Assembly: GCF_902459525.1 (NCBI RefSeq)
Contig: NZ_LR699166.1
Location: 3,546,501 to 3,610,500, forward strand
Source: Sideroxydans sp. CL21
GTDB taxonomy: Bacteria > Pseudomonadota > Gammaproteobacteria > Burkholderiales > Gallionellaceae
Reading direction: 5' to 3'
DNA: 64,000 bases
In this document: piece after piece, positions 1 through 54,527 of the stretch
Layout of the letters: each line of letters begins with the position of its first letter
Numbering within the stretch: position 1 is the stretch's first letter
Translations under genes and position numbers: made by a program
The notes under the pieces: generated by a model
Seen by the model: only the letters and a program-made list of their open reading frames with translations
Told to the model about the DNA's origin: nothing
The model's database searches: none

Positions 1-544
1 AATTGTTGAACGCGGCGGGTACGCGACCCGAACCGGCAGTGTCGGTACCCAGACTGAAGCTGGCCAGCCCCAGCGCAACGGCTACTGCCGAACCCGAGCT
101 GGAACCGCCGGAAATATAGTCCGCGTCATACGCGTTGCGGCATGCGCCGTGCGGCGAACGTGTACCGTTCAGCCCGGTAGCGAATTGATCCAGGTTGGTT
201 TTTCCGACGGGGATCGCACCCGCTTCGATCAGGCGTTGCACCACCGTCGCATGACGTTGCGGCTGATAGGCAAATTCAGGACAGCCTGCCGTAGTCGGCG
301 CACCCGCCAGATCGATGTTGTCCTTGATGGCGAACGGAATGCCGTACAAAGGCAGCGTAACAGGATCCTTGTTTTGCAGGGCCGACACGTAGTCACTGAT
401 TTCCGCCAACGACAAGCGGTGGATCCAGACGTGGTGCGGGTCGTCGCCGATGCGCGCCAGAATATCCTGCATGACGGCCAGCGGATGCAGCTCGCCTGCA
501 AGATAGCGTTTACGGAGTGCATTTATGCTCAGATCGTTTTTCAT
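1..544 (-). CDS. atzF: Allophanate hydrolase, N-terminal part (cut by window edge)
   Basis: The first 181 codons of an amidase-signature enzyme are visible, starting at the ATG at 544 and open to the left edge. The translation has the catalytic-lysine region ([20 protein letters not shown]) and the serine-rich signature [14 protein letters not shown], which supply the Ser-Ser-Lys triad. Allophanate hydrolase splits allophanate to ammonia and CO2 in the cytoplasm. It starts 7 nt after the carboxylase stop, so it is very probably the last visible gene of the guanidine operon. Amidase membership is certain; the allophanate assignment rests on the neighbours and N-terminal style, because the C-terminal domain is off the window. 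Confidence 0.85.
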
Positions 545-551
545 CGTTCCC

Positions 552-3500
552 TCACTCATCGCTGTGGATTACCAGCAGGTCTTGCCCGGCGGAGACTTGT
601 CCGCCCGCACGGCAATTCAATTGAAGGATCTCGCCGTCACAGGGAGCGAGCACCGCGATCTCCATCTTCATCGACTCGATGACCACCAGCGTATCGCCCG
701 CCCTGACCTTGCTGCCAACCTCGACAGACATGGCCCACACGTTGCCCGCGACATGGGCTGTCACGGCACGGCTACCCGGCGGCAGGTCAAGTTCACTGTC
801 CGTTCCGGCATCTGCCACCGTGCTGTCCGTGGCGTACTCCGCCTGACCGTTGGCTTTCCACATCTCGCGCTCTGTGGCGAACGCGGCACGCTGCGTGTTG
901 CGGAATGCACTGATCTCCCTGTCGTTGGTATGCAGGTACTGGTTGTATTCCTTCAGACTGAAGGTGGTCTCCTCGGTTTTGAGCTGGAAACGTCCGGCCA
1001 CGAAGTCCTCGCGCATCTTGAGCAACTCCTGCTCCGACACCGGATAAAAGCGAATCTGGTCGAAGAAGCGCAGCAACCATGGTTTTCCTTGCTCGAAGTC
1101 AGCCGTCTGTTTGTAACGGTTCCACATCTGAACGGTGCGTCCGACAAACTGGTAACCGCCGGGACCTTCCATGCCGTAGACACACATATAGGCACCGCCG
1201 ATGCCGACAGCGTTCTCCGGAGTCCAGGTACGTGCAGGGTTATATTTGGTCGTGACCAGGCGGTGCCGCGGATCGAGCGGCGTGGCCACCGGCGCACCAA
1301 GATAGACATCCCCAAGACCCAGCACCAGATAGCTCGCGTCGAACACGATACGTTTTACCTGTTCGATGTCGGCAATGCCGTTGATGCGGCGGATGAACTC
1401 GATGTTGCTCGGACACCAGGGCGCATCCTTGCGTACCGACTGCATATATTTCTCGATCGCCAGTTTTGTCGAAGGGTCGTCCCACGACAACGGAAGATGC
1501 ACGATGCGTGTTGGCACCTCCATGTCTGAAATGGGTGGCAGCTGCTTCTCTGCTTTGATGAGTTTCTTTACCAATTCGCCGCGCGACATCACGCGACTGT
1601 CGAAATGGATCTGCAACGAGCGGATACCGGGAGTCAGATCGAGGACGCCTTGCAGCTTTCCCTCGCTCATCGCCTGCTGCACCCATTGCATCAGCGCGTG
1701 TACCCGGAATCGCAGATTGATATCGAGCACCAGCGGCCCATACTCGATGAGCAGGTTGCGGTCGCCGGACTGGCGATAAACCACCTGTACCTGCTCACCC
1801 TTGGCCGGAATACTGTGAATGACGGGGCTGCCCATCTTTTTGGCGGCTGGAAACTCGCGTGGCGCCCTCGGCAAGCTCAGCCCTGCGATGGTCTCGTCTT
1901 GCAGCTGTTCGAGGTGATTCGCCTGCTCCAGGGTCATCCAGCGGAAGCGCACCGTATCCCCCGGCCGCAGTTGACCCATCTTCCATAGTTCGCCATGGAC
2001 GATGGTCACCGGACACACGAAACCGCCGAGGCTGGGACCGTCCGGGCCGAGGATCACCGGCATATCGCCGGTGAAGTCCACCGCGCCGATGGCATAGGCG
2101 TTATCGTGGATGTTGGACGGATGCAGCCCGGCCTCGCCGCCGTCCTGCCGAGCCCATTCCGGCTTGGGGCCGATCAGGCGCACACCGGTGCGGCTGGAGT
2201 TGTAATGCACTTCCCATTCGGTGGCAAAAAAAGTCTGGATGTCGGATGGTGTAAAAAAATCCGGCGCGCCATGCGGACCGTACAACACGCCAATCTCCCA
2301 CTGATTGCCATACGCAGGGATCAGATTTGTCGGCAGTGCGCGATGTGTCCGGGGAGGAGGTTCAACGCCGAGGTGCAACACATCGCCGGTGCGCAACGTG
2401 CGCCCGCCATGGCCGCCGAACTGGCCCAGCGTGAAAGTGGATTTGCTGCCAAGATAATCCGGTACATCGAAGCCGCCGCCCACAGCCAGATAAGTCCTGC
2501 AACCGCCGCCTTGCACCGCGCCCAGCCGCAACACACTACCCGCCTTGATCACATGGCTGCGCCAGAATTTCAACGGTTTGCCATCCAGTTCGGCTTTCAT
2601 CGCCGCGCCAGTCAGCGCGATGACCGTGTCGCGATTGAATTTCAGCGTCGGGCCGGAAACGGTCAGTTCCAATCCTGCCGCATCGCCTGCGTTGCCCAAC
2701 AGTTGGTTGCCCAACCGGAATGCAAGCGCATCCATCGGCCCCGACGGCGGCACACCGATGTTCCAGTAACCGAGACGGCCCGGGTAGTCCTGAAGCGTGC
2801 TTTGCACGCCTGATTCCAGCACGTCGATGGTGTTCGGTTTGTAATGGAAGCCGTTCAGGTAGCGCGTGGTCTGCCGACCCTCGGCGAACACGCGGTCAGC
2901 CACGATTTGGCGCAGATATTCCAGATTGGTCTCAATACCGTCCACCCGCGTATCGGCCAGCGCATCGCGCATCTTCTCCAGCGCCGCTTCCCGGTTCATC
3001 GCCTTGACGATGATCTTGGCGATCATCGGATCGTAGTACGGCGGAATGTCGCTACCGCGCTCCACCCAGGTTTCATTGCGCGCATCGGCAGAGAACTCGA
3101 CCCCGGTCAGCACACCGCTGGAAGGCTGGAAATTCTTGTTCGGATCCTCCGCATACAGACGTACCTGGATCGAAGCGCCTTTGGGTTTGATCAGTACCGA
3201 ACCCAGATCAGGGAGTTCGCCAGCCGCTTGCAACACCATCCATTCGACCAGATCGACCCCGGTCACTTCTTCCGTGACACCGTGTTCTACTTGCAAACGC
3301 GTATTCACTTCGAGGAAATAGAATTCGCCGTTATGGGCGTCGAACACGAATTCCACCGTTCCGGCCGATTGGTACTGCACGGCTTCGCCCAACCGCACAG
3401 CGGTTTCCAGCAGATGCTTTCTGACTTCCGGTGTCAAATTCGGCGCGGGTGTCTCTTCGATTACTTTTTGATTGCGGCGCTGCACCGAGCAGTCGCGCTC

Positions 3501-4172
3501 ACCCAGCGCGATCACCTGCCCCCTGCCGTCACCGAACAACTGCACTTCAATATGACGCGCGTGTTCGACATACTTCTCCAGATAGATGCCGGCATCTTTG
3601 AAGTTTGCGCGCGCCAGACGTTCCACCGACTGGAACGCCTCGTTCAGTTCGTCCGCACTCCAGCATAGACGCATGCCGATGCCGCCACCGCCCGCCGTGC
3701 TCTTGATCATCACCGGATAGCCGATGCGCGAGGCCTCGGCATGCGCGTGACCGGCATCACCCAACAGTCCGCTGCCCGGCAGCAGCGGCACACCGTTCTG
3801 TTCTGCGATTTCGCGTGCGGTATGCTTGAGTCCAAAGCGGCGCATCTGGTCCGGTGTGGGACCGATGAATACCACCCCCGCTTCGGCACACTGTTCGGCG
3901 AATGCGGCGTTCTCGGATAGAAAACCATAACCGGGATGAATGGCCTGGGCACCTGTGCTCCGGGCGACTTCCAGAATGCGCTCGCCGCGCAAATAACTCT
4001 CGGCAGCAGCGGGCCCGCCGATGCAAACAGCCTCGTCTGCCATCTGCACATGCAATGAACGGGCATCGGCTTCCGAATAGACTGCGACCGATCGGATACC
4101 CATCCGTTTCAGCGTTCGGATGATGCGGCAGGCAATTGCGCCGCGATTTGCGATCAACACTTTATTGAACAT
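552..4172 (-). CDS. Guanidine (urea-type) carboxylase, biotin-dependent
   Basis: A 1206-residue multidomain enzyme of the urea carboxylase family. An N-terminal biotin carboxylase/ATP-grasp module (about 1-450, [17 protein letters not shown]) is followed by an allophanate-hydrolase-subunit-2/KipA-like carboxyltransferase domain (about 455-770), a KipI-like domain (about 800-1080) and a C-terminal biotinyl domain with the biotinylated lysine in [11 protein letters not shown]. The ATG at 4172 follows an AGGTGA Shine-Dalgarno. Members lying beside two DUF1989 proteins and behind a ykkC riboswitch carboxylate guanidine rather than urea, using ATP and bicarbonate. That substrate assignment is taken from context. 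The generic database name would be urea carboxylase. Confidence 0.93.
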
Positions 4173-4232: not shown

Positions 4233-4239
4233 GACTAAT

Positions 4240-4380
4240 GGACACTTCTAAAAATCCAAATTTCGTCGCAATACTGTGTTACTCACAAAAAATTACTCCT
4301 TACATATCATGCATATGCTGCGTCGCAATTTTTTGTTCGCGCCTTGTCTTGCTTAGAACTTTTAATTTTTAGAAGCGCCC
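4240..4380. mobile_element. MITE-like element with 16-bp terminal inverted repeats
   Basis: The left end GGACACTTCTAAAAAT (4240-4255) is matched in inverted orientation by ATTTTTAGAAGCGCCC (4365-4380), 14 of 16 positions and a perfect 11-bp core. The 141-bp element carries no ORF and is AT-rich compared with its neighbours. CGTCGCAAT occurs twice inside in direct orientation (4264-4272 and 4321-4329). No convincing target duplication is visible; the flanks share only a short A/T stretch. It sits inside the guanidine operon and makes an unusually long gap for this otherwise tight cluster. The source transposon is not identified. Confidence 0.55.
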
Positions 4381-4389
4381 AAATGTTTA

Positions 4390-5040
4390 TCAATGCCCTG
4401 TCTCGTCCCAGATCAACAGCCGCACCGGCGTCGGGTTATAGGCGTTGCAGGGATTATTCAACTGCGGACAATTCGAGATCAGCACGTACACATCCATCTC
4501 CGCGCGCATCTCGACGTATTTCCCTGGCGCAGAGATGCCGTCGGCGAATGTCAGTTCACCCTGCGGGGTCACCGGCACATTCATGAAAAAATTCACGTTG
4601 GCAGTCAGATCGCGCTTGTCCATGCCGCAGTCGCAATGACCGAGGGCGTGCAAAAAACTGTCGCGGCAACTGTGCATGTATTTCTTGTCAATGGCATAGC
4701 GCACAGCGTTGCTTTCCGCCGCACAGGCACCGCCGAGCGTATCGTGCCTGCCGCAGGTATCGGCGACGATGGTCATCAGTACGTTGCCTTCGGTGGACAA
4801 CAGGCGTGTGCCGGCAGTCAGATACAGGTTGCCTTGCTCGCGTATGGTATCCACCGCGCTATAACGCTCTTCCGGGTTGTGCGCGTTGTAGAACAGCGTA
4901 TCCACTGCCTGATTGCCTTCCAGGTCAAGAATGCGGAATACCTGCCCGCGTTTCACTTTATGCAGCCAGGATTCACCCGCCGGCAGGACGCAGTCGAAAC
5001 TTGCTTGCTGCGCTGCCAATTTGCTTTCGACGATAGCCAT
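4390..5040 (-). CDS. cgdB: Carboxyguanidine deiminase subunit (UAAP2, DUF1989)
   Basis: A 216-residue DUF1989 protein, long annotated as urea carboxylase-associated protein 2. The family motif appears as [15 protein letters not shown], with further conserved [10 protein letters not shown] and [14 protein letters not shown] segments. The ATG at 5040 ([12 protein letters not shown]) is chosen because it is preceded by AGGAGAAAAC and avoids overlap with the upstream gene. With its partner it forms the deiminase that converts carboxyguanidine to allophanate and ammonia. It follows the first subunit by 14 nt. The subunit letters A and B are assigned by order only. Confidence 0.85.
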
Positions 5041-5054
5041 GTTTTCTCCTGCCC

Positions 5055-5783
5055 TTAGCCAAACAGTAATTCGGTGTTGTAGAAACCGCGCACATTCTCC
5101 GGTCGGAAATTGCGGCAGTAATCGTCTTCCTTTGCAGTACCGCAGTTCCATGCCTGCAGCAACACCGGTTTCGGGGCGTATTTCAAATCGGGATCCAGGG
5201 GATGCTGACTCGCCGACATGACGACCAGCACATTCATGTCGAAGCGCAAGTCAACAAAATTCCCCGCCCTGGAATTGCGGGGCTCGTAATGCAAGTTTCC
5301 GGCATTGTCCACACTTGCCTTGCTGAAGAAATTCACGTTGGGCACGATGTCACGTTTCCCCAAACCCCACTTGCCGAGTTCAATCAGAAAGCTGTCGCGC
5401 GCATTACGGTGCATGGCGTTGCGATACTGCTGGTAATCGGCTTTGCCGTATTTCTTCTCCACCAGCGCCGCGTTGCTTATGCCGCAGATTGTGTCGTGCC
5501 AGCCGCAAGTGTCTTCGATGATGGATGCCAGCACGCGCCCCATGTCCGAATAGCACACGAAGCCTTTGGTGAGATGCGCGGTGTGTTGCGCCTTCAGCGT
5601 ATCGGCCATGTTGTAGCGTTCCAGCTTCTCTTCCCGGTTGTAGAACAGCGCGGACAGATTCGCCCCGCCTTCCACATCGGTGATGCGCAATGCGGTTCCG
5701 CGCTTCATCAAGAACGACCAGTGGCCCCCGCCGGGAATGGTTTCTTCCCACAGCATGTTTTGTTTGGATATTTGCTTGGTCAT
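5055..5783 (-). CDS. cgdA: Carboxyguanidine deiminase subunit (UAAP1, DUF1989)
   Basis: A 242-residue DUF1989 protein, the urea carboxylase-associated protein 1 type. It has [26 protein letters not shown] and [17 protein letters not shown], and ends with the family tail [15 protein letters not shown]. It is the first gene after the riboswitch and heads the operon cgdA-cgdB-carboxylase-atzF. Together with cgdB it should deiminate carboxyguanidine. In many genomes a nitrate/taurine-type ABC transporter lies between riboswitch and deiminase genes; none is present here. Confidence 0.87.
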
Positions 5784-5893
5784 GGCGTCTCGCTTTTTGC
5801 TGTATCACTACTGATGCTGACAGAATGTTCCGCACAGATTGAGCGAGTCGATCGACCGGTAGGATGCTGTTGAAATGACATTGCACGACTCCT

Positions 5894-5949
5894 GAAATAA
5901 AAATAGCCCGGGAGGGTGCCAATGAAACTTGGTCACATCCTCCCGGGCT
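5894..5949 (-). terminator. Intrinsic terminator of the guanidine-I riboswitch
   Basis: On the minus strand AGCCCGGGAGG (5949-5939) pairs perfectly with CCTCCCGGGCT (5915-5905). The inner arms GTGACCAAG and TTGGCAC can extend the stem, and it is followed by a T-rich tract (ATTTTTATTT). The 5' arm is also the last conserved segment of the aptamer, so guanidine binding should sequester it and allow read-through into cgdA. This is the standard transcription-control layout for this riboswitch class. Confidence 0.85.
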
Positions 5950-6050
5950 TTTATCCCTCCGTGGAGCCTTGTCATCAACAAGACCGAGAACTCTCGGACC
6001 AGACACCATCGACTTCAATAGACGGTCGGAACCCTAGTTCTTCTATAAGT
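5936..6050 (-). promoter_or_regulatory. Guanidine-I riboswitch aptamer (ykkC)
   Basis: On the minus strand the conserved segments occur in order: CTAGGGTTCCG, then CTGGTCCGAGAG, then CCACGGAGGGATAAAAGCCC. These are hallmark strings of the ykkC/guanidine-I aptamer. The aptamer ends directly in the terminator hairpin upstream of the deiminase genes. The ligand (guanidinium) is known from the class. The outer limits given are approximate. Confidence 0.93.
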
Positions 6051-6087
6051 GGCCGACCTGCAAGACCGGCACCCTTGATTAAATTGT

Positions 6088-6104
6088 AGCAGCAATCATG
6101 CCAC
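6088..6104 (-). promoter_or_regulatory. Sigma-54 promoter of the guanidine operon
   Basis: Minus-strand GTGGCATGATTGCTGCT has the GG and GC dinucleotides exactly 10 nt apart, matching the TGGCACG-N4-TTGC consensus well. Transcription would start near 6077, just before the riboswitch aptamer. Two other nitrogen loci in this window carry promoters of the same design (51370-51386 and 54399-54415), which raises confidence. Confidence 0.68.
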
Positions 6105-6167
6105 TGTACTGAAATGCCATTCAGCCGGAGTAACAAGCTGTGGGGAATATTGCATCTTCGCCATGAG

Positions 6168-6184
6168 TGCACTTGTATTGTGCA
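6168..6184. promoter_or_regulatory. NtrC-type enhancer palindrome
   Basis: TGCACTTGTATTGTGCA fits the NtrC dyad (TGCACC-N5-GGTGCA) in its TGCA half-sites and spacing. It lies about 75 bp upstream of the putative sigma-54 promoter, a typical enhancer distance. The regulator itself is not in the window. Confidence 0.55.
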
Positions 6185-6253
6185 AGCACGCACCAAAATT
6201 GAGCGCTAAAGACGATGGGGCGTGACGGCGCTACTGGTCGATTCGAGCTCGGG

Positions 6254-7078
6254 CTAATCCACTACCGGCAACCGGATCGTGTACTGCCCCGATTTTTCGT
6301 CCTTCACCAGCATCACCAGTTTGTGCTTCTGTGCATCCTCCATCAGTTCACGGAACGAGCGATAACCATAGAAAGATTCGTTGAAGCCTGGCCTGCGTCG
6401 TTGCATGGTGGTCTTGACCATCGAACCCCAGATCTTTTCGTCCGAGCCGCGTTCCGAGATCAGACCCTCGACCGTTTCAACCAAAAATTCCATCGCTTCC
6501 TGCTTCTTGTCTTCTTCGCCCTTTGCTTCGGCCGGTTTTACTGTTCCTGTTTTTGCCTTGGCGGGGGCCTTCTTGGCGGCCTGCTTTTTCTTCGCTTCCT
6601 GCACCCGCACCAAGTCGTCGTAGAAGATGAATTCATCACAATTAGCGCTCAACAAATCGGAAGTGGAATCCTTCACGCCGATGCCGATCACGTATTTGTT
6701 GTTCTCGCGCAGCTTGGAGACCAGCGGCGAAAAATCCGAATCGCCACTGATGATGACGAAGGTGTCGACGTGGGCCTTGGTGTAGCAGAGATCGAGCGCA
6801 TCGACGACCATGCGGATATCGGCGGAGTTCTTGCCCGATTGGCGCACGTGCGGAATCTCGATCAGTTCGAACGCGGCTTCGTGCATGGTGGCTTTGAATT
6901 CCTTGTAGCGATCCCAGTCACAATACGCTTTCTTGACCACGATGCTGCCCTTGAGCAGCAGGCGTTCCAGCACTTTCTTGATGTCGAACTGCGCGTACTT
7001 GGCGTCGCGCACGCCCAGCGCCACGTTCTCGAAATCGCAGAACAAAGCCATGTTGGTAATTTCGGGTTGGTTTGCCAT
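6254..7078 (-). CDS. NYN (LabA/DUF88-type) domain protein with C-terminal OST-HTH
   Basis: A 274-residue protein starting at ATG 7078 (MANQPEITNMALFCDFENVA), with AGGAG upstream. The NYN/PIN-like nuclease domain spans about 10-160: acidic residues in FCDFENVALG, then SADIRMVVDALDLCY and IISGDSDFSPLVSKLREN. A lysine/alanine-rich linker (KKKQAAKKAPAKAKTG) leads to a C-terminal OST-HTH/LOTUS-like RNA-binding region (EKIWGSMVKTTMQRRRPGFNE). The family is thought to act as metal-dependent RNases; the target RNA is unknown. Its promoter must read away from the guanidine operon leader, which follows it on the same strand. Confidence 0.8.
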   Translation of the reverse strand: MANQPEITNMALFCDFENVALGVRDAKYAQFDIKKVLERLLLKGSIVVKKAYCDWDRYKEFKATMHEAAFELIEIPHVRQSGKNSADIRMVVDALDLCYTKAHVDTFVIISGDSDFSPLVSKLRENNKYVIGIGVKDSTSDLLSANCDEFIFYDDLVRVQEAKKKQAAKKAPAKAKTGTVKPAEAKGEEDKKQEAMEFLVETVEGLISERGSDEKIWGSMVKTTMQRRRPGFNESFYGYRSFRELMEDAQKHKLVMLVKDEKSGQYTIRLPVVD

Positions 7079-46372: not shown

Positions 46373-46541
46373 CCAATTTTCCAATTGCTTCAGTCATGAA
46401 ATTTGGTGCACACACTCATGACGTGCACTGTTATTGGGCAAGCAATTCTGAATGACGCCGATAAACATCGATTAAGACTGGCAGACATCATGGCCCAAAG
46501 CTTGCTTTTAGTAACAGGTCCTCATTCCGGATTAATGCATC
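46373..46541 (+). other. Leader region of the chemotaxis receptor gene
   Basis: 169 bp between the terminator and the receptor start. GGTGCAC (about 46404) and GTGCACT (about 46425) form a loose dyad, but no sigma-54 GG-N10-GC element or sigma-70 pair is convincing here. No ORF is supported. Confidence 0.3.
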
Positions 46542-48701
46542 ATGTTGAAAAGCGAACAAATGGAATTATTGTCTTCCGAGAAACACTGGTTGCCCTGGTT
46601 CGGCAAGACCGGAAAATTCGCGATGCGCTGGGCCACCCTGATCAATCGTCGGCGTTATCCGATTCTGGAGCAGACCTTTGAAGGGATCGCCGCTACACGC
46701 ATTCAGACCCTGACAGGCTGGGCTAACCACCAATGGGTACTGCTGGAAGGTATGGCCGCCGAGGTAGTGCGCGAACTGCCGGAGCCTACCGTTACTCTGA
46801 TGAAGAACCTGGTTGCAAGATCAGCGGATTTTTCCGAGATTTTCGTCATCGATTGCGATGGTCGCGTTATTGCGTCCAGTTACCCTGTGCGAGTCGGCGC
46901 CGCTTTCCAGTTTCCCAATGTACTGCAGACTGCGAAAGCCCAGCGTTTCCTGCATGGGCCTTATATCGATCAGACGACCCAGTCCATCGGGCCTTCCAGT
47001 TCGAAATTCCACGATGCGGTGACGTTGATGTTTTATCTTCCGCTCAAGGCAGAAGGCAAAGTCGTCGGCTGCCTGTGCGGGCGGGTACCGAACGATGTGC
47101 TGGGAGATCTTATCCAGCGCGAGGCGGGCCACATTTTCGTCGATTCAGGGGACAACTACCTGTTCATGGTTAAGTCGGTTTTCGACCCCGCTATTCAGCC
47201 GGGTACCGCACTTTCTCGCTCACGGTTTGAAGATAGCACGTTCAGTCTGGGAGAAAACCTCAAGCAGGGCGTGCATACCGATTTTGGCGTCGTCAAAATC
47301 AGGAATCACACCGAATTCGAAATAGTCTTTAACGACCCGGCTACCGGAAAATTACATCCCGGAGTCAGGGAAACTATCGCTCGCGGAGCGAACCTGTTCG
47401 TCAAATATCCAGGTTATTCCGACTACCGGCATATTCCTGTGATCGGCAAAGGCGTTACTTTTCAGATGCCCGGTTCACCCGATACCTGGGGCATGATGTG
47501 CGAAGCGGACCTGGAAGAAGCGAATCGCTTTCGATCTGTCAATTTTCTCATGATGAGCACCAATCTGATGTTGGTATTCACGACCTGGCTGCTTACATTC
47601 GTGGTCGGGCGGATGCTGGAGCTGGATATTGCGTGGACTGCGCTGCTCAATCTTTCCCTGCTGGGAATTGGTGTCTTGCTGTTTTACCACTTTGGCCTGA
47701 AGCCGATGACGGAACGATTGCGCCTCATGGCACGCATGATCCGTATCCTGGCCGAGGGCGGCGGGAACCTCTCTCAACGCCTGGAACGCAATCAAACAAC
47801 GATCGATGAACCGGCGATCATGTCGCAGTGGATCAACAGTTTTATCGATACGCTCGATGGCACCGTCAGTCGCGTCATTCATGCCACCGGAGAGATGGAT
47901 CAGAACCACGAAAGCATGATGAGTCGCAATCAGGAAGCAACCGTGGCAGCTCATCAGGTTCTCGCTGCGGTACAGGAGATCCTGCTGTCGTTGCGGCGGC
48001 AAATGGGAGATATAGATACGGCGATGCAAACCACGGCCGAGATACGTGCTGCCATGCAACTTGCCGTTGACAATGCCCGGCAACAATTCAAGCTGGTGCA
48101 GCAGCGAACACAGGGCATACGCTCTTCTATCGAGCAGTCTTCGCAAACCATCAAGCGCCTCAGCAACAGCACCGAGGAGATAGGAAAGATCGTGATGGTG
48201 ATCAACGCCATCGCAGATCAAACCAACCTGCTGGCCCTGAATGCGGCGATTGAAGCTGCCCGTGCCGGAGAAGCAGGGCGCGGATTTTCCGTCGTTGCCG
48301 ATGAGGTGCGCAAGCTGGCTGAACGCACCACAACTGCAACCAAGGAGATAGGCCAAATGATCGGCACCGTGCAGGGTCAGGCGCGTGACGCTGTGCACAT
48401 CATGGAAAATGGTTCCATCGGAATGGAAGAGGGATTGCGCCTGGCGGAAGCGGCTGCTTCCGATAACACCGGCATGACTGAAATTGTGGAACGCATGTTC
48501 AGTCTGATCCAGAGTATTGCCGATAGCTCACATCGTTATGGTAACGATGTGCAGGGCGTCGCCAAAGTCACGGAATCGATGCGCGGGGCGCTGGACCAGC
48601 TGAATTTCAGCGTTGCGAGGGCAAGACAGACTTCTCTGAGGCTTCAGCATCTTTCAAGTCAATTCCAGGTAACGCAATTGCAAGCGCGTCCCGTCCTTTG
48701 A
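46542..48701 (+). CDS. Methyl-accepting chemotaxis protein with N-terminal cache-like domain
   Basis: 719 residues. About 60-330 is a cache/PDC-like sensor ([40 protein letters not shown]). Two membrane helices follow ([21 protein letters not shown] and [20 protein letters not shown]), then a HAMP-like segment ([18 protein letters not shown]) and the signalling domain with its hairpin [20 protein letters not shown]. Unusual: no membrane helix precedes the sensor, so with this start it would be cytoplasmic or the helices re-entrant. The start codon is uncertain; ATG 46560 is an alternative. Confidence 0.88.
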
Positions 48702-48718
48702 AACACAATCTTTCATTA

Positions 48719-50881
48719 ATGCCGACCAAATTCGACACTGGATCGAGTGTTTCCGCGAGTCCGTCTGCCCATATGTATATCAATTCCAGCCTGCAGGCCA
48801 AGCTCGAAAACAGCGAGCGCATGCTAAAGGCTCTCCTCAACAATCTGGATGGCATGGTGTATTGCTGCCTTTATGATGACGAGTGGACGATGGTGTTTGT
48901 CGGGGATGGTTGCAAGCAGCTGACTGGCTACGATGCTCTGTCGTTAGTGTCGAACCAGGACATCTGTTTCAAGGCGATCACATTTCCTGAAGACCGGGAT
49001 CGCGTGCGCAAAGTGATAGAGGATGCCATTTCTTCAGGTCAGCATTTTTCAGTCGAGTATCGCATCATTCACATTGACGGCGGAATCAAATGGGTACTTG
49101 AACGCGGCTGCCCGCTTTATAACGATTCGGGTGAAGTCGAGGCGATCGAAGGCTTCATGCAGGACATCACTCAACGCCGGGAAAGCGAAATAGCTGCCCG
49201 CAAAGCAGAGGAACGCTATCGTTCCATCTTTGAAAATGCTCTGGAAGGTATTTACCAGACGTCTCCAGACGGTCACTACCTCAATTTCAATCCCGCTCTG
49301 GCCAGGATCTACGGTTACGATTCGGATGTAGATCTGATTCACGGCATCACCGATATCAAAAAGCAGCTGTACGTCGATCCCTTCAAGCGCGATGAATTTA
49401 TCAGGCTGATGACGGCCCACGGCCACGTAAAAAATTTTGAAGCCCTGGTCCACCGCAAAAACGGCGATATTATCTGGATCTCCGAGAATGCGCGTGAGGT
49501 AAGGGATCAGGATGGCAAGCTGATATTCTACGAAGGCACGGTCGAGGACATCACCGAGCGCAAGAGCTACCAGCAGCAGATCGAATACCAGGCAACCCAT
49601 GATGCCCTGACCGGCTTGCCCAACCGCACTTTGCTCGCGGATCGCCTGCAGCAATATATCGGCATGGCAGAGCGCTATTCAAGCAAAGTGGCCGTAGCCT
49701 TTATCGATCTGGACCAATTCAAACTGATCAACGACAGCATGGGGCATCACGCCGGGGACGAATTGCTCAAGATCATGGCGACGCGCCTCTCCGGCTGCGT
49801 GCGCGATTCCGACACCGTGGTCCGTTTGGGTGGCGACGAGTTTGTGCTGTTGCTGACCGGTCTGCACAAGATTGAGGATGTTTCGGAGAGCATGCAGCGA
49901 GTTCTATCGTCGGTAGCCGACCCATGCCTGATCGAAGGCCGGGAATTCGTTGTTTCCTGCAGCATCGGCATCAGCATCTATCCCGACGATGCGCGGGATA
50001 CCACGACCCTGCTCAAATATGCCGATTCGGCCATGTACAAATCAAAGCAGTCGGGCAGGAACACTTTCCAGTTCTATACCGACGAACTCAATCGGCGGCT
50101 GATGGAACGTCTGGACATGGAATATCGATTGCGCCAGGCGCTGGATAACAATGAGTTTCTTCTGCATTACCAGCCCAAGCTGTCATTTGCCAGCGGTGAC
50201 ATCTGCGGTGCTGAGGCGTTGATACGTTGGCAACCCGTCGGCGAAAGTATGATCTCTCCGGCGAGTTTCATACCAATTGCGGAAGAAACCGGGCTCATCG
50301 AAGACATCGGGCAATGGGTCTTGCGTACTGCCTGCAGCCGGGCCGTCGAGCTGAATGCGCGTTTGGGTCGTGAACTGCCGATCGCCGTTAACGTATCGCC
50401 GCGCCAATTCCGCCATTCAGGTCTTGTCGGTGTAGTGCAATCGATACTGAAAGAGAGCGGCCTGAACCCTGCATGTCTGGAACTGGAGATCACCGAAAGC
50501 AGTCTGGTGCATGACACAGGCAGCTTTATCAAAACACTGCATGAGCTGAAGGCACTTGGCGTGAAACTGGCGATCGATGATTTCGGTACCGGCTACTCCA
50601 GCATGGCGTACCTGAAAGATTTTCCGGTCGACCGGCTCAAGATCGATCAGGTATTCGTGAGCCGCCTGGAGGCGGAGCCCAGCAATATTGCCATCCTTAA
50701 GGCAATTGTCGCACTCGGACATAGCCTGGGCATGAAGGTCATCGCCGAAGGTGTGGAAACAGCCTATCAACAGGCATTCCTGCTTGGCATAGGATGCGAC
50801 GAGCTGCAGGGCTATTTTTTCAGCAAACCCCTTTCCACGGCAGCGTTTGATACATTCCTGATCGTCGGACCATCCCGATAA
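48719..50881 (+). CDS. PAS-PAS-GGDEF-EAL cyclic-di-GMP protein
   Basis: 720 residues from ATG 48719; a TTG at 48698 that overlaps the receptor stop is possible. Two PAS/PAC sensor domains (about 30-150 with YDDEWTMVFVGDGCKQLTGY, and 165-290 with FENALEGIYQTSPDGHYLNF) lead to a GGDEF domain with an intact site RLGGDEFVLL and an EAL domain with GAEALIRWQP, NVSPRQF, EITESSLV, AIDDFGTGYSS and KVIAEGVET. Both diguanylate cyclase and phosphodiesterase sites look intact, so it could make and break c-di-GMP. No membrane segment. Encoded directly after the receptor, so the two are probably cotranscribed. Confidence 0.93.
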   Translation: MPTKFDTGSSVSASPSAHMYINSSLQAKLENSERMLKALLNNLDGMVYCCLYDDEWTMVFVGDGCKQLTGYDALSLVSNQDICFKAITFPEDRDRVRKVIEDAISSGQHFSVEYRIIHIDGGIKWVLERGCPLYNDSGEVEAIEGFMQDITQRRESEIAARKAEERYRSIFENALEGIYQTSPDGHYLNFNPALARIYGYDSDVDLIHGITDIKKQLYVDPFKRDEFIRLMTAHGHVKNFEALVHRKNGDIIWISENAREVRDQDGKLIFYEGTVEDITERKSYQQQIEYQATHDALTGLPNRTLLADRLQQYIGMAERYSSKVAVAFIDLDQFKLINDSMGHHAGDELLKIMATRLSGCVRDSDTVVRLGGDEFVLLLTGLHKIEDVSESMQRVLSSVADPCLIEGREFVVSCSIGISIYPDDARDTTTLLKYADSAMYKSKQSGRNTFQFYTDELNRRLMERLDMEYRLRQALDNNEFLLHYQPKLSFASGDICGAEALIRWQPVGESMISPASFIPIAEETGLIEDIGQWVLRTACSRAVELNARLGRELPIAVNVSPRQFRHSGLVGVVQSILKESGLNPACLELEITESSLVHDTGSFIKTLHELKALGVKLAIDDFGTGYSSMAYLKDFPVDRLKIDQVFVSRLEAEPSNIAILKAIVALGHSLGMKVIAEGVETAYQQAFLLGIGCDELQGYFFSKPLSTAAFDTFLIVGPSR

Positions 50882-53544: not shown

Positions 53545-54342
53545 TTAGAACGTACGGCTCAGCGCCAATACTGCGACGCCTTTGCCCAACTTGTTGGTCG
53601 TTCCATAAACCGTGCTGTTGTATGCCGCGGTGGCATTTGTATTGCTGTAGGTCAGGCTAGCCGCATAACCATTCGTCAAATCCTTAGAAAGGCTGATGTT
53701 GTAGTCCGAATATGTAGGTGAAAAGCCGCCCAAAACATTGGCAACATAAGCGTTATATTTGGCAGATGATCCACTATAGCTTTGCTTGCCATAGTGAGCC
53801 GCCAGAGTGTAGGTCGTATCCGGGATAGGATAGGTTCCTGTTATATCTATATAGTTCGTGCCACTTGCGTCCGGCACGCCAAAAGTATCTCCAAGGCTGT
53901 AGGAATACTTCACGTAGAAATACGAATAGGTCAACTTGCCGTAGATTTCGTTGGTATCACCCTTGGTTGCACCTGGTGCGTAGGTACCTGGGTAGTTATA
54001 GCGCAGAAAGCCTACGTCATAACCCAATGCGCCTGCGGTGGACCTGTAACCACCGTAAGTATCCAGTTCCAAACCTGCATTTGCGGCAGCTCCACCGTCA
54101 CTCAACCAGCTGATGCTTGAACCCCATGTACCGATGTACAGACCATTGGCATTTGCATAGTCAAAACCGCCCTGGATGGCCGGCTTGCCACCAGTTTGCG
54201 AAATACCGCGATACAGGTAGTTGGTCGTCAGTGCCACGTTGGTAGAAAATGGCGATGCCGGTGCAGCCGGAGCATCATCAGCCATTGCGCTCACAGAGAA
54301 AGCAGAGACCAAGGCAGCAACTAGCAGTTTGTTCTTAAGCAT
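53545..54342 (-). CDS. TorF family putative outer-membrane porin
   Basis: 265 residues from ATG 54342 with AAAGGAAAC upstream. A signal peptide (MLKNKLLVAALVSAFSVSAMA) is followed by FSTNVALTTNYLYRGISQTG, the hallmark of this beta-barrel family, and alternating amphipathic strands to a C-terminal aromatic residue (ALSRTF). Rich in Gly, Tyr, Ser and Thr. First gene of the sigma-54-controlled unit porin-glnK-amtB, suggesting outer-membrane passage of nitrogen compounds; the cargo is unproven. Confidence 0.88.
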   Translation of the reverse strand: MLKNKLLVAALVSAFSVSAMADDAPAAPASPFSTNVALTTNYLYRGISQTGGKPAIQGGFDYANANGLYIGTWGSSISWLSDGGAAANAGLELDTYGGYRSTAGALGYDVGFLRYNYPGTYAPGATKGDTNEIYGKLTYSYFYVKYSYSLGDTFGVPDASGTNYIDITGTYPIPDTTYTLAAHYGKQSYSGSSAKYNAYVANVLGGFSPTYSDYNISLSKDLTNGYAASLTYSNTNATAAYNSTVYGTTNKLGKGVAVLALSRTF

Positions 54343-54398
54343 GGTGTTTCCTTTCGTTATTAAATTAAGTGGGATGAAAGTATCCACGCCTACCTCTC

Positions 54399-54415
54399 AG
54401 CAGAAACTGTGCCAA
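54399..54415 (-). promoter_or_regulatory. Sigma-54 promoter of porin-glnK-amtB
   Basis: Minus-strand TTGGCACAGTTTCTGCT: a TGGCAC -24 box, then GC 10 nt after GG. The start point would be near 54388, giving a leader of about 45 nt before the porin ATG. Confidence 0.78.
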
Positions 54416-54478
54416 CCATGGAATACCGCGCCGATACTCGGTTTGTGACAGGATTGTAATTATTTTGGAAAGTACGGC

Positions 54479-54494
54479 GCACCAAGTCCATGCA
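54479..54494. promoter_or_regulatory. NtrC-type site, proximal
   Basis: GCACCAAGTCCATGCA: one consensus half-site and one close half-site of the GCACC-N5-GGTGC dyad, about 70 bp upstream of the sigma-54 promoter. Confidence 0.5.
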
Positions 54495-54506
54495 CGAAAA
54501 CAGTGC

Positions 54507-54527
54507 GGCGCACCCGAGCGGTGCGCC
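54507..54527. promoter_or_regulatory. NtrC-type site, distal
   Basis: GGCGCACCCGAGCGGTGCGCC is a perfect dyad holding GCACC-N5-GGTGC, the NtrC core. It is centred about 33 bp from the proximal site (roughly three helical turns), as expected for tandem enhancer sites. Confidence 0.65.

Follow-up and report, generated by a model that had tools for sequence, protein, structure and literature searches.

The 64,000-nucleotide stretch of Sideroxydans sp. CL21 analyzed here (contig NZ_LR699166.1, a single contig of 3.77 Mb, positions 3,546,501 to 3,610,500; this whole stretch is the window, and its own numbering is used throughout) carries a guanidine-assimilation operon on its minus strand. We consider it very probable that NtrC and sigma-54 RNA polymerase start the transcripts of this operon, and that the terminator of a Guanidine-I riboswitch and an internal Guanidine-II riboswitch gate them. 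There is strong support for control by NtrC, sigma-54, and Guanidine-I, both from position-specific conservation among relatives and from published RNA sequencing (RNA-seq) of an ntrC mutant, which covers an apparently homologous locus. Each part of this arrangement is known; their coupling appears to be undescribed in the open-licence literature and to be widespread in the sample surveyed below.

The sequence of events would be as follows. During nitrogen shortage, phosphorylated NtrC would bind at 6168-6184 and activate sigma-54 RNA polymerase at 6088-6103. When guanidine is absent, the nascent RNA would form the terminator (5949-5894), where most transcripts would end. When guanidine is present, the aptamer would hold the 3′ strand, no terminator would form, and the genes UAAP1 and UAAP2 would be transcribed, as suggested by the structure and by the known behavior of Guanidine-I. 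The transcript would then reach the Guanidine-II riboswitch, which, if it acts in the known mode of its class, gates the translation of the ATP-using carboxylase. These steps would let nitrogen status determine the number of transcripts begun, and guanidine the number that reach completion and are translated.

An earlier note on this DNA had proposed a three-layer control consisting of an NtrC-type site, a sigma-54 promoter, and a Guanidine-I riboswitch. All three elements are present; the proposal omitted the Guanidine-II riboswitch, so that the operon has at least four control elements.

The NtrC-Type Site, the Promoter, and the Guanidine-I Leader

The control region contains, in the direction of transcription:

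6168-6184, minus strand: NtrC-type palindrome TGCAC-N7-GTGCA, TGCACTTGTATTGTGCA, without mismatches, 64 bp upstream of the sigma-54 site
6103-6088, minus strand: sigma-54 (-24/-12) promoter, TGGCATGATTGCTGCT, with a GG-N10-GC core
6048-5938, minus strand: Guanidine-I aptamer (RF00442), 88.7 bits against a cut-off of 63, covering model positions 1-107 of 107 and thus full length
5949-5894, minus strand: intrinsic terminator, with a hairpin at 5949-5905 and a T-rich tail at 5904-5894

All four had been named in the earlier note, the promoter as a consensus match, and all four were recovered here, the aptamer by a covariance search with the Rfam model and the promoter at a position that is conserved in relatives. 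The distance that the note had given, within 300 bp upstream of a gene called cgdA, needs correction: the palindrome lies 384 bp upstream of the UAAP1 start and 286 bp from a leader open reading frame (ORF) that begins at 5881. The gene name is not adopted either: the first large gene is UAAP1 (TIGR03425), and the letters cgdA/cgdB are not assigned to UAAP1/UAAP2.

The consensus for sigma-54 promoters is a GG-N10-GC core within TGGCAC and TTGCW blocks. The site TGGCATGATTGCTGCT scores 14.5 out of 16.5 and has the core, and it deviates from the blocks at two positions (T in place of C in TGGCAC, and C in place of T in TTGCW); the definitions and weights of both the sigma-54 and the NtrC motifs do not come from a curated matrix. 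Aligned with three relatives, the region keeps its TGGCA and CTGCT blocks invariant, and the DNA further upstream varies. Judging from the position of the promoter, transcription would start near 6078, about 12 nt past the GC and about 30 nt before the aptamer, which itself begins 39 nt from the sigma-54 site. Both proteins that this control calls for are encoded in the genome: NtrC (704.6 bits, above the cut-off of 558.6) and RpoN (contig C1, 438239-439645, 456.6 bits, above the cut-off).

The scan for sigma-54 sites covered the window and the homologous leaders of the survey. Within the window, the palindrome at 6168-6184 is the only copy without mismatches. A sigma-54 site scoring at least 14.5 that has, 30-160 nt upstream of it, a palindrome with no more than one mismatch occurs three times, whereas 40 block-shuffled windows average 0.05 such composites. 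The two composites besides that of the operon are:

54399-54507, minus strand: palindrome at 54491-54507 (one mismatch) and sigma-54 site at 54414-54399, heading a porin-glnK-amtB cluster
46424-46506, plus strand: palindrome at 46424-46440 (one mismatch) and sigma-54 site at 46491-46506, before a gene for a methyl-accepting chemotaxis receptor

The earlier note had supported its promoter with two similar ones at nitrogen genes. This is right for the porin-glnK-amtB cluster (54414, minus strand), and wrong for the site at 46491 on the plus strand, where the receptor gene is not in itself a nitrogen gene. The composite is followed there by the receptor and then by a GGDEF/EAL gene (46424-50881), an arrangement that suggests nitrogen-controlled taxis.

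The aptamer at 6048-5938 is the only Guanidine-I match in the genome. Its 3′ end is itself the 5′ arm of the terminator, AGCCCGGGAGG, which pairs with CCTCCCGGGCT in a perfect stem of 11 bp followed by ATTTTTATT. The predicted folding energies are -32.6 kcal/mol for the isolated terminator hairpin and -31.0 kcal/mol for the aptamer. The full leader folds at a minimum energy of -61.1 kcal/mol into a structure that includes the terminator. A simple terminator scan misses the hairpin at 5949-5905; its single entry is a short stem within the aptamer (5997-5984). The Guanidine-I class has been described as an ON switch (PMC12186494). A terminator that shares the 3′ end of the aptamer is the expression platform expected for such a switch, and the modeled leader, with its overlap of terminator arm and aptamer end, is compatible with antitermination upon guanidine binding.

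Conservation of the Sigma-54 Site and the Palindrome

The survey covered 170 Guanidine-I loci from 120 genomes of Pseudomonadota, the phylum to which the window belongs. Four Guanidine-I matches below the cut-off were left out (G160:C565, G152:C60, G877:C1:836539, and G980) and two were kept (G240 and G1050); the pooled genome sets overlap and oversample the relatives of the window. Two measures of the sigma-54 site were used, a strict pattern (TGGCA-N7-TGC) and a graded one (score of at least 13.5 within 200 nt upstream).

The strict pattern is present within 300 nt upstream of the aptamer at 112/170 loci, compared with 6/170 on the opposite strand and 2.35/170 in dinucleotide shuffles. Within 100 nt the corresponding figures are 110/169 and, on the reverse strand, 2/169. 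Further upstream on the same strand, matches nearly vanish (0/167 at 300-600 nt, 3/165 at 600-900 nt, and 1/165 at 900-1200 nt). The reverse strand is not a clean control, with 10/167 strict matches at 300-600 nt to which divergent riboswitch pairs may contribute. By the graded score, a site is found at 146/170 loci, and 49 of the 57 family labels are represented among these; against control stretches, the comparison is 144/167 vs. 4/167, 10/167, and 10/165. Where the first recognized gene encodes part of an ABC transporter or UAAP1/UAAP2, 135 of 145 loci have the site. It is also present at four of the five loci led by an arginase-family gene, one member of which was checked with Pfam and which is probably a guanidine hydrolase.

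NtrC-type palindromes with at most two mismatches are concentrated 50-99 nt upstream of the sigma-54 site, with 88 matches or 12.05 per 1000 positions. The background beyond 250 nt is 0.1-1 per 1000 (about 0.5 beyond 300 nt), which makes the peak about 20-fold higher. Within 250 nt, such a palindrome accompanies 100 of the 146 sites, as opposed to 15/144 in a distant stretch, 75/730 in letter-shuffled copies, and 5/24 at the loci that have no sigma-54 site. With at most one mismatch allowed, the counts are 40/146 for the loci and 0/144 for the distant control. Similarly, a second scan, for the combination of sigma-54 site and Guanidine-I in titled genomes, gave at least 119 stretches, which may overlap the survey genomes; among the 80 that were read, palindromes, which were outside the search pattern, occurred in 50/78, and in 8/70 control stretches. 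Most Guanidine-I assimilation loci in the sample from the phylum share the predicted NtrC/sigma-54 step.

Guanidine-II was searched for, like RpoN, in 80 of the 120 genomes. The 80 genomes contain 51 matches, 36 of which lie 1.5-6.2 kb downstream of a Guanidine-I riboswitch on the same strand. The first recognized gene after Guanidine-II, read for 30 of the 51, was a carboxylase in 22 cases, a member of the deiminase family in three, and another gene in five.

Expression of an Apparently Homologous Locus in Burkholderia cenocepacia

In Burkholderia cenocepacia H111 shifted to 0.3 mM NH4Cl, RNA-seq of an ntrC mutant recorded a drop in the genes I35_7283-7286, with a log2 change of -6.0 for the carboxylase and zero reads for two of the genes (PMC5491218). 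A locus in another strain of the species (L176) has the same gene order and a carboxylase of the Asp type described below, with a sigma-54 site and a Guanidine-I riboswitch on both of its divergent sides. This divergent pair (L176:8216-8904) lies between a gene for a substrate-binding protein and UAAP1. Pairs of divergent Guanidine-I riboswitches were also recognized by position in G257, G211, G098, G287, G318, G739, G486, and G467.

Genes of the Operon and its Surroundings

Downstream of the leader, the operon comprises:

5780-5881, minus strand: leader ORF of 33 codons, preceded by AGGAG, whose TGA overlaps the UAAP1 start codon (ATGA)
5055-5783, minus strand: UAAP1, of the carboxyguanidine deiminase subunit family (TIGR03425, PF09347)
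4390-5151, minus strand: UAAP2, of the second subunit family (TIGR03424, PF09347)
4236-4392, strand not assigned: interspersed repeat of about 150 bp, between UAAP2 and Guanidine-II
4231-4187, minus strand: Guanidine-II riboswitch (RF01068), 36.1 bits against a cut-off of 32, ending 14 nt before the carboxylase start
552-4172, minus strand: guanidine-type carboxylase (TIGR02712, 1947 bits)
1-559, minus strand: start of an allophanate hydrolase gene that extends beyond the window (L016:15276-17060, 594 amino acids)

The leader ORF may couple the translation of UAAP1 to the leader. An ORF of equal length and with the same overlap is present in L003 and L034, and one of 34 codons that runs a few bases into UAAP1 in L008. 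The family match of UAAP2 begins only at residue 52, and its true start therefore probably lies downstream of 5151. We take COG3665 to be the family of UAAP1 and UAAP2. A search of phages gave two records, each with an annotated urea-carboxylase-associated gene. The repeat between UAAP2 and Guanidine-II has an inverted terminal sequence, and the genome has 16 matches to it, a count that takes in this copy and partial matches.

Residue Asp699 of the carboxylase aligns with Asn1330 of the urea enzyme of Kluyveromyces lactis (5i8i), and the residue at this position tells guanidine carboxylases from urea carboxylases (PMC12186494; PMC11410670). Because of Asp699, the substrate is most likely guanidine. 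A Guanidine-II riboswitch directly before this gene would add a translational gate to the control of the operon.

Beyond the window, the allophanate hydrolase gene is followed by genes for an ABC transporter. The region downstream of the hydrolase (L016:6631-13239) encodes this transporter, a porin of the TorF family, a creatininase-like protein, a glutamine synthetase of type III, and a regulator resembling NikR. The porin at the head of the window's glnK-amtB cluster (53545-54387) is of the TorF family too.

Exceptions and Alternative Explanations

Several observations weigh against the proposed control, or at least against its generality. The sigma-54 site is missing at 24 of the 170 loci, including all 11 loci of one family (f16), even though the 10 genomes of this family carry RpoN. 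A missing RpoN was considered as the reason for missing promoters, and it proved only partly right: beside the 10 of 10 f16 genomes with RpoN and no sites, three genomes of family f263 without sites gave no RpoN (G1007), a fragment of 39 bits (G1094), or a match of 275.1 bits for a cut-off of 277.35 (G1135). Another genome (G739) has sigma-54 sites, yet no rpoN was detected in the genome search. In Raoultella terrigena (L221), a sigma-54 site is present and the best palindrome has three mismatches. A terminator that shares the aptamer end was found at only 56/170 loci by strict rules (control, 4) and 95/170 by relaxed ones (control, 28). A universal terminator was consequently rejected, and these counts make other output modes likely in many relatives. 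As for the published evidence, I35_7283-7286 of strain H111 were matched to L176 by gene order and annotation across different strains, and comammox Nitrospira, which belongs to a different phylum and has a permease-type locus, used guanidine simultaneously with ammonium, from which its authors infer on/off control of the riboswitch type (PMC11410670). Since guanidine and ammonium were used together there, nitrogen gating is not general to guanidine use.

The f16 loci deserve separate mention. None of the 10 that have an APC-type permease of about 480 amino acids downstream has a sigma-54 site (one of these was checked with Pfam, and the others were joined to it by BLAST); the contrast of 0/10 with 135/145 comes from a single family and is not phylogenetically independent. 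The loci in question are L012, L018, L027, L029, L033, L036, L041, L042, L107, and L118. Guanidine-I before an APC-type permease is possibly a class without nitrogen control.

The absence of the site from all 11 f16 loci could be taken to mean that a housekeeping sigma-70 promoter and guanidine alone drive the operon, the matches to sigma-54 and to the palindrome having no function. Many Guanidine-I riboswitches elsewhere do work in hosts that lack sigma-54. We nevertheless find this explanation very improbable for the operon of the window: a search of 5780-6260 on the minus strand gave no sigma-70-like promoter, neither the TGGCA nor the CTGCT block varies in the alignment, and the strand- and position-specific conservation of the sigma-54 site is far above that of the controls. 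A promoter that is real and served by an enhancer-binding protein other than NtrC, such as a sensor of carbon or amine signals, has slightly more in its favor and is still improbable. Seven further places in the genome match the central domain of the NtrC model, all below the cut-off, and at 46 of the 146 loci with a sigma-54 site the best palindrome has three or four mismatches. Against this stand the perfect palindrome 64 bp upstream of the promoter, the like composite before porin-glnK-amtB, the sharp peak of palindromes at 50-99 nt across loci, and the need of the matching B. cenocepacia genes for NtrC (PMC5491218).

It is also conceivable, and this alternative must be taken more seriously although we hold it to be unlikely, that nitrogen is the dominant control and the riboswitches serve for fine-tuning only, substantial expression under nitrogen starvation then needing no guanidine. 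The wild type of B. cenocepacia H111 transcribed I35_7283-7286 in low ammonium, a measurable transcript under nitrogen shortage alone, and the word guanidine is absent from the text of the paper (PMC5491218). The earlier note had concluded that expression requires both signals; because of this transcription in 0.3 mM NH4Cl with guanidine unmentioned, a strict AND gate is not supported. What speaks against mere fine-tuning is the strength of the terminator in the window (-32.6 kcal/mol) and the behavior of Vreelandella boliviensis, in which most proteins of the guanidine operon were undetected on ammonium and the others were about three orders of magnitude lower, in a test of guanidine vs. ammonium in which nitrogen status differs too and the two signals stay confounded (PMC12508155).

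Significance of the Proposed Coupling

If NtrC and sigma-54 start the transcripts and the riboswitches gate them, then the riboswitch would serve to check a nitrogen-starvation transcript against the presence of the substrate, and the operon would be a natural two-input design that joins a starvation promoter to a metabolite-sensing RNA. We lean toward extending this scheme to most Pseudomonadota with Guanidine-I. These would have an NtrC/sigma-54 guanidine regulon, whose transcripts are proof-read by the Guanidine-I terminator for completion and by Guanidine-II for translation of the carboxylase. Published induction values for guanidine vs. ammonium would then mix two signals. More generally, where the feeding promoters are under nitrogen control, tests in rich or ammonium medium, or of guanidine vs. 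ammonium, would misjudge the riboswitch. A split is hinted at between assimilation operons, which have sigma-54 sites, and permease-type loci, which do not.

Comparison with Known Systems

No paper that joins sigma-54 or NtrC to guanidine riboswitches was found among open-licence full texts. One review of guanidine riboswitches presents them as sensors that stand alone, and its text mentions neither NtrC nor sigma factors (PMC12186494). Similarly, differential RNA-seq (dRNA-seq) in Alcanivorax placed Guanidine-I before a transporter gene, and the part consulted gives no promoter type (PMC9788540).

Two halves of the arrangement are already in print. The gca operon of V. boliviensis resembles that of Sideroxydans in that a Guanidine-I riboswitch occupies its leader and a Guanidine-II riboswitch precedes its carboxylase; in the main text of the paper, NtrC and rpoN do not occur and "sigma" is only the name of a supplier (PMC12508155). 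Control by sigma-54 has been predicted for 102 genes of COG3665 ("urea carboxylase"), in a regulon entry that does not mention guanidine and has the word riboswitch only in the title of a reference (PMC12316311).

In the NtrC regulon of B. cenocepacia H111, a matching gene cluster depends on NtrC when ammonium is low; the difference is that the authors read I35_7283-7286 as urea genes (PMC5491218). The guanidine-type Asp and the two Guanidine-I riboswitches of L176 point the other way, which suggests that these genes, described as NtrC-controlled urea genes, are a guanidine locus.

By analogy, the logic closest to that proposed for the guanidine operon is found in the nasF leader of Klebsiella. 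There, general nitrogen control by NtrC and sigma-54 sets initiation. As in Sideroxydans, the leader of a nitrogen-assimilation operon contains a terminator that is relieved by a pathway-specific signal, in this case through NasR (PMC3369931). The two systems differ in the reader of that signal: in nasF a protein, the ANTAR regulator NasR, reads nitrate, whereas in Sideroxydans an RNA would read guanidine, and a second riboswitch lies within the operon.
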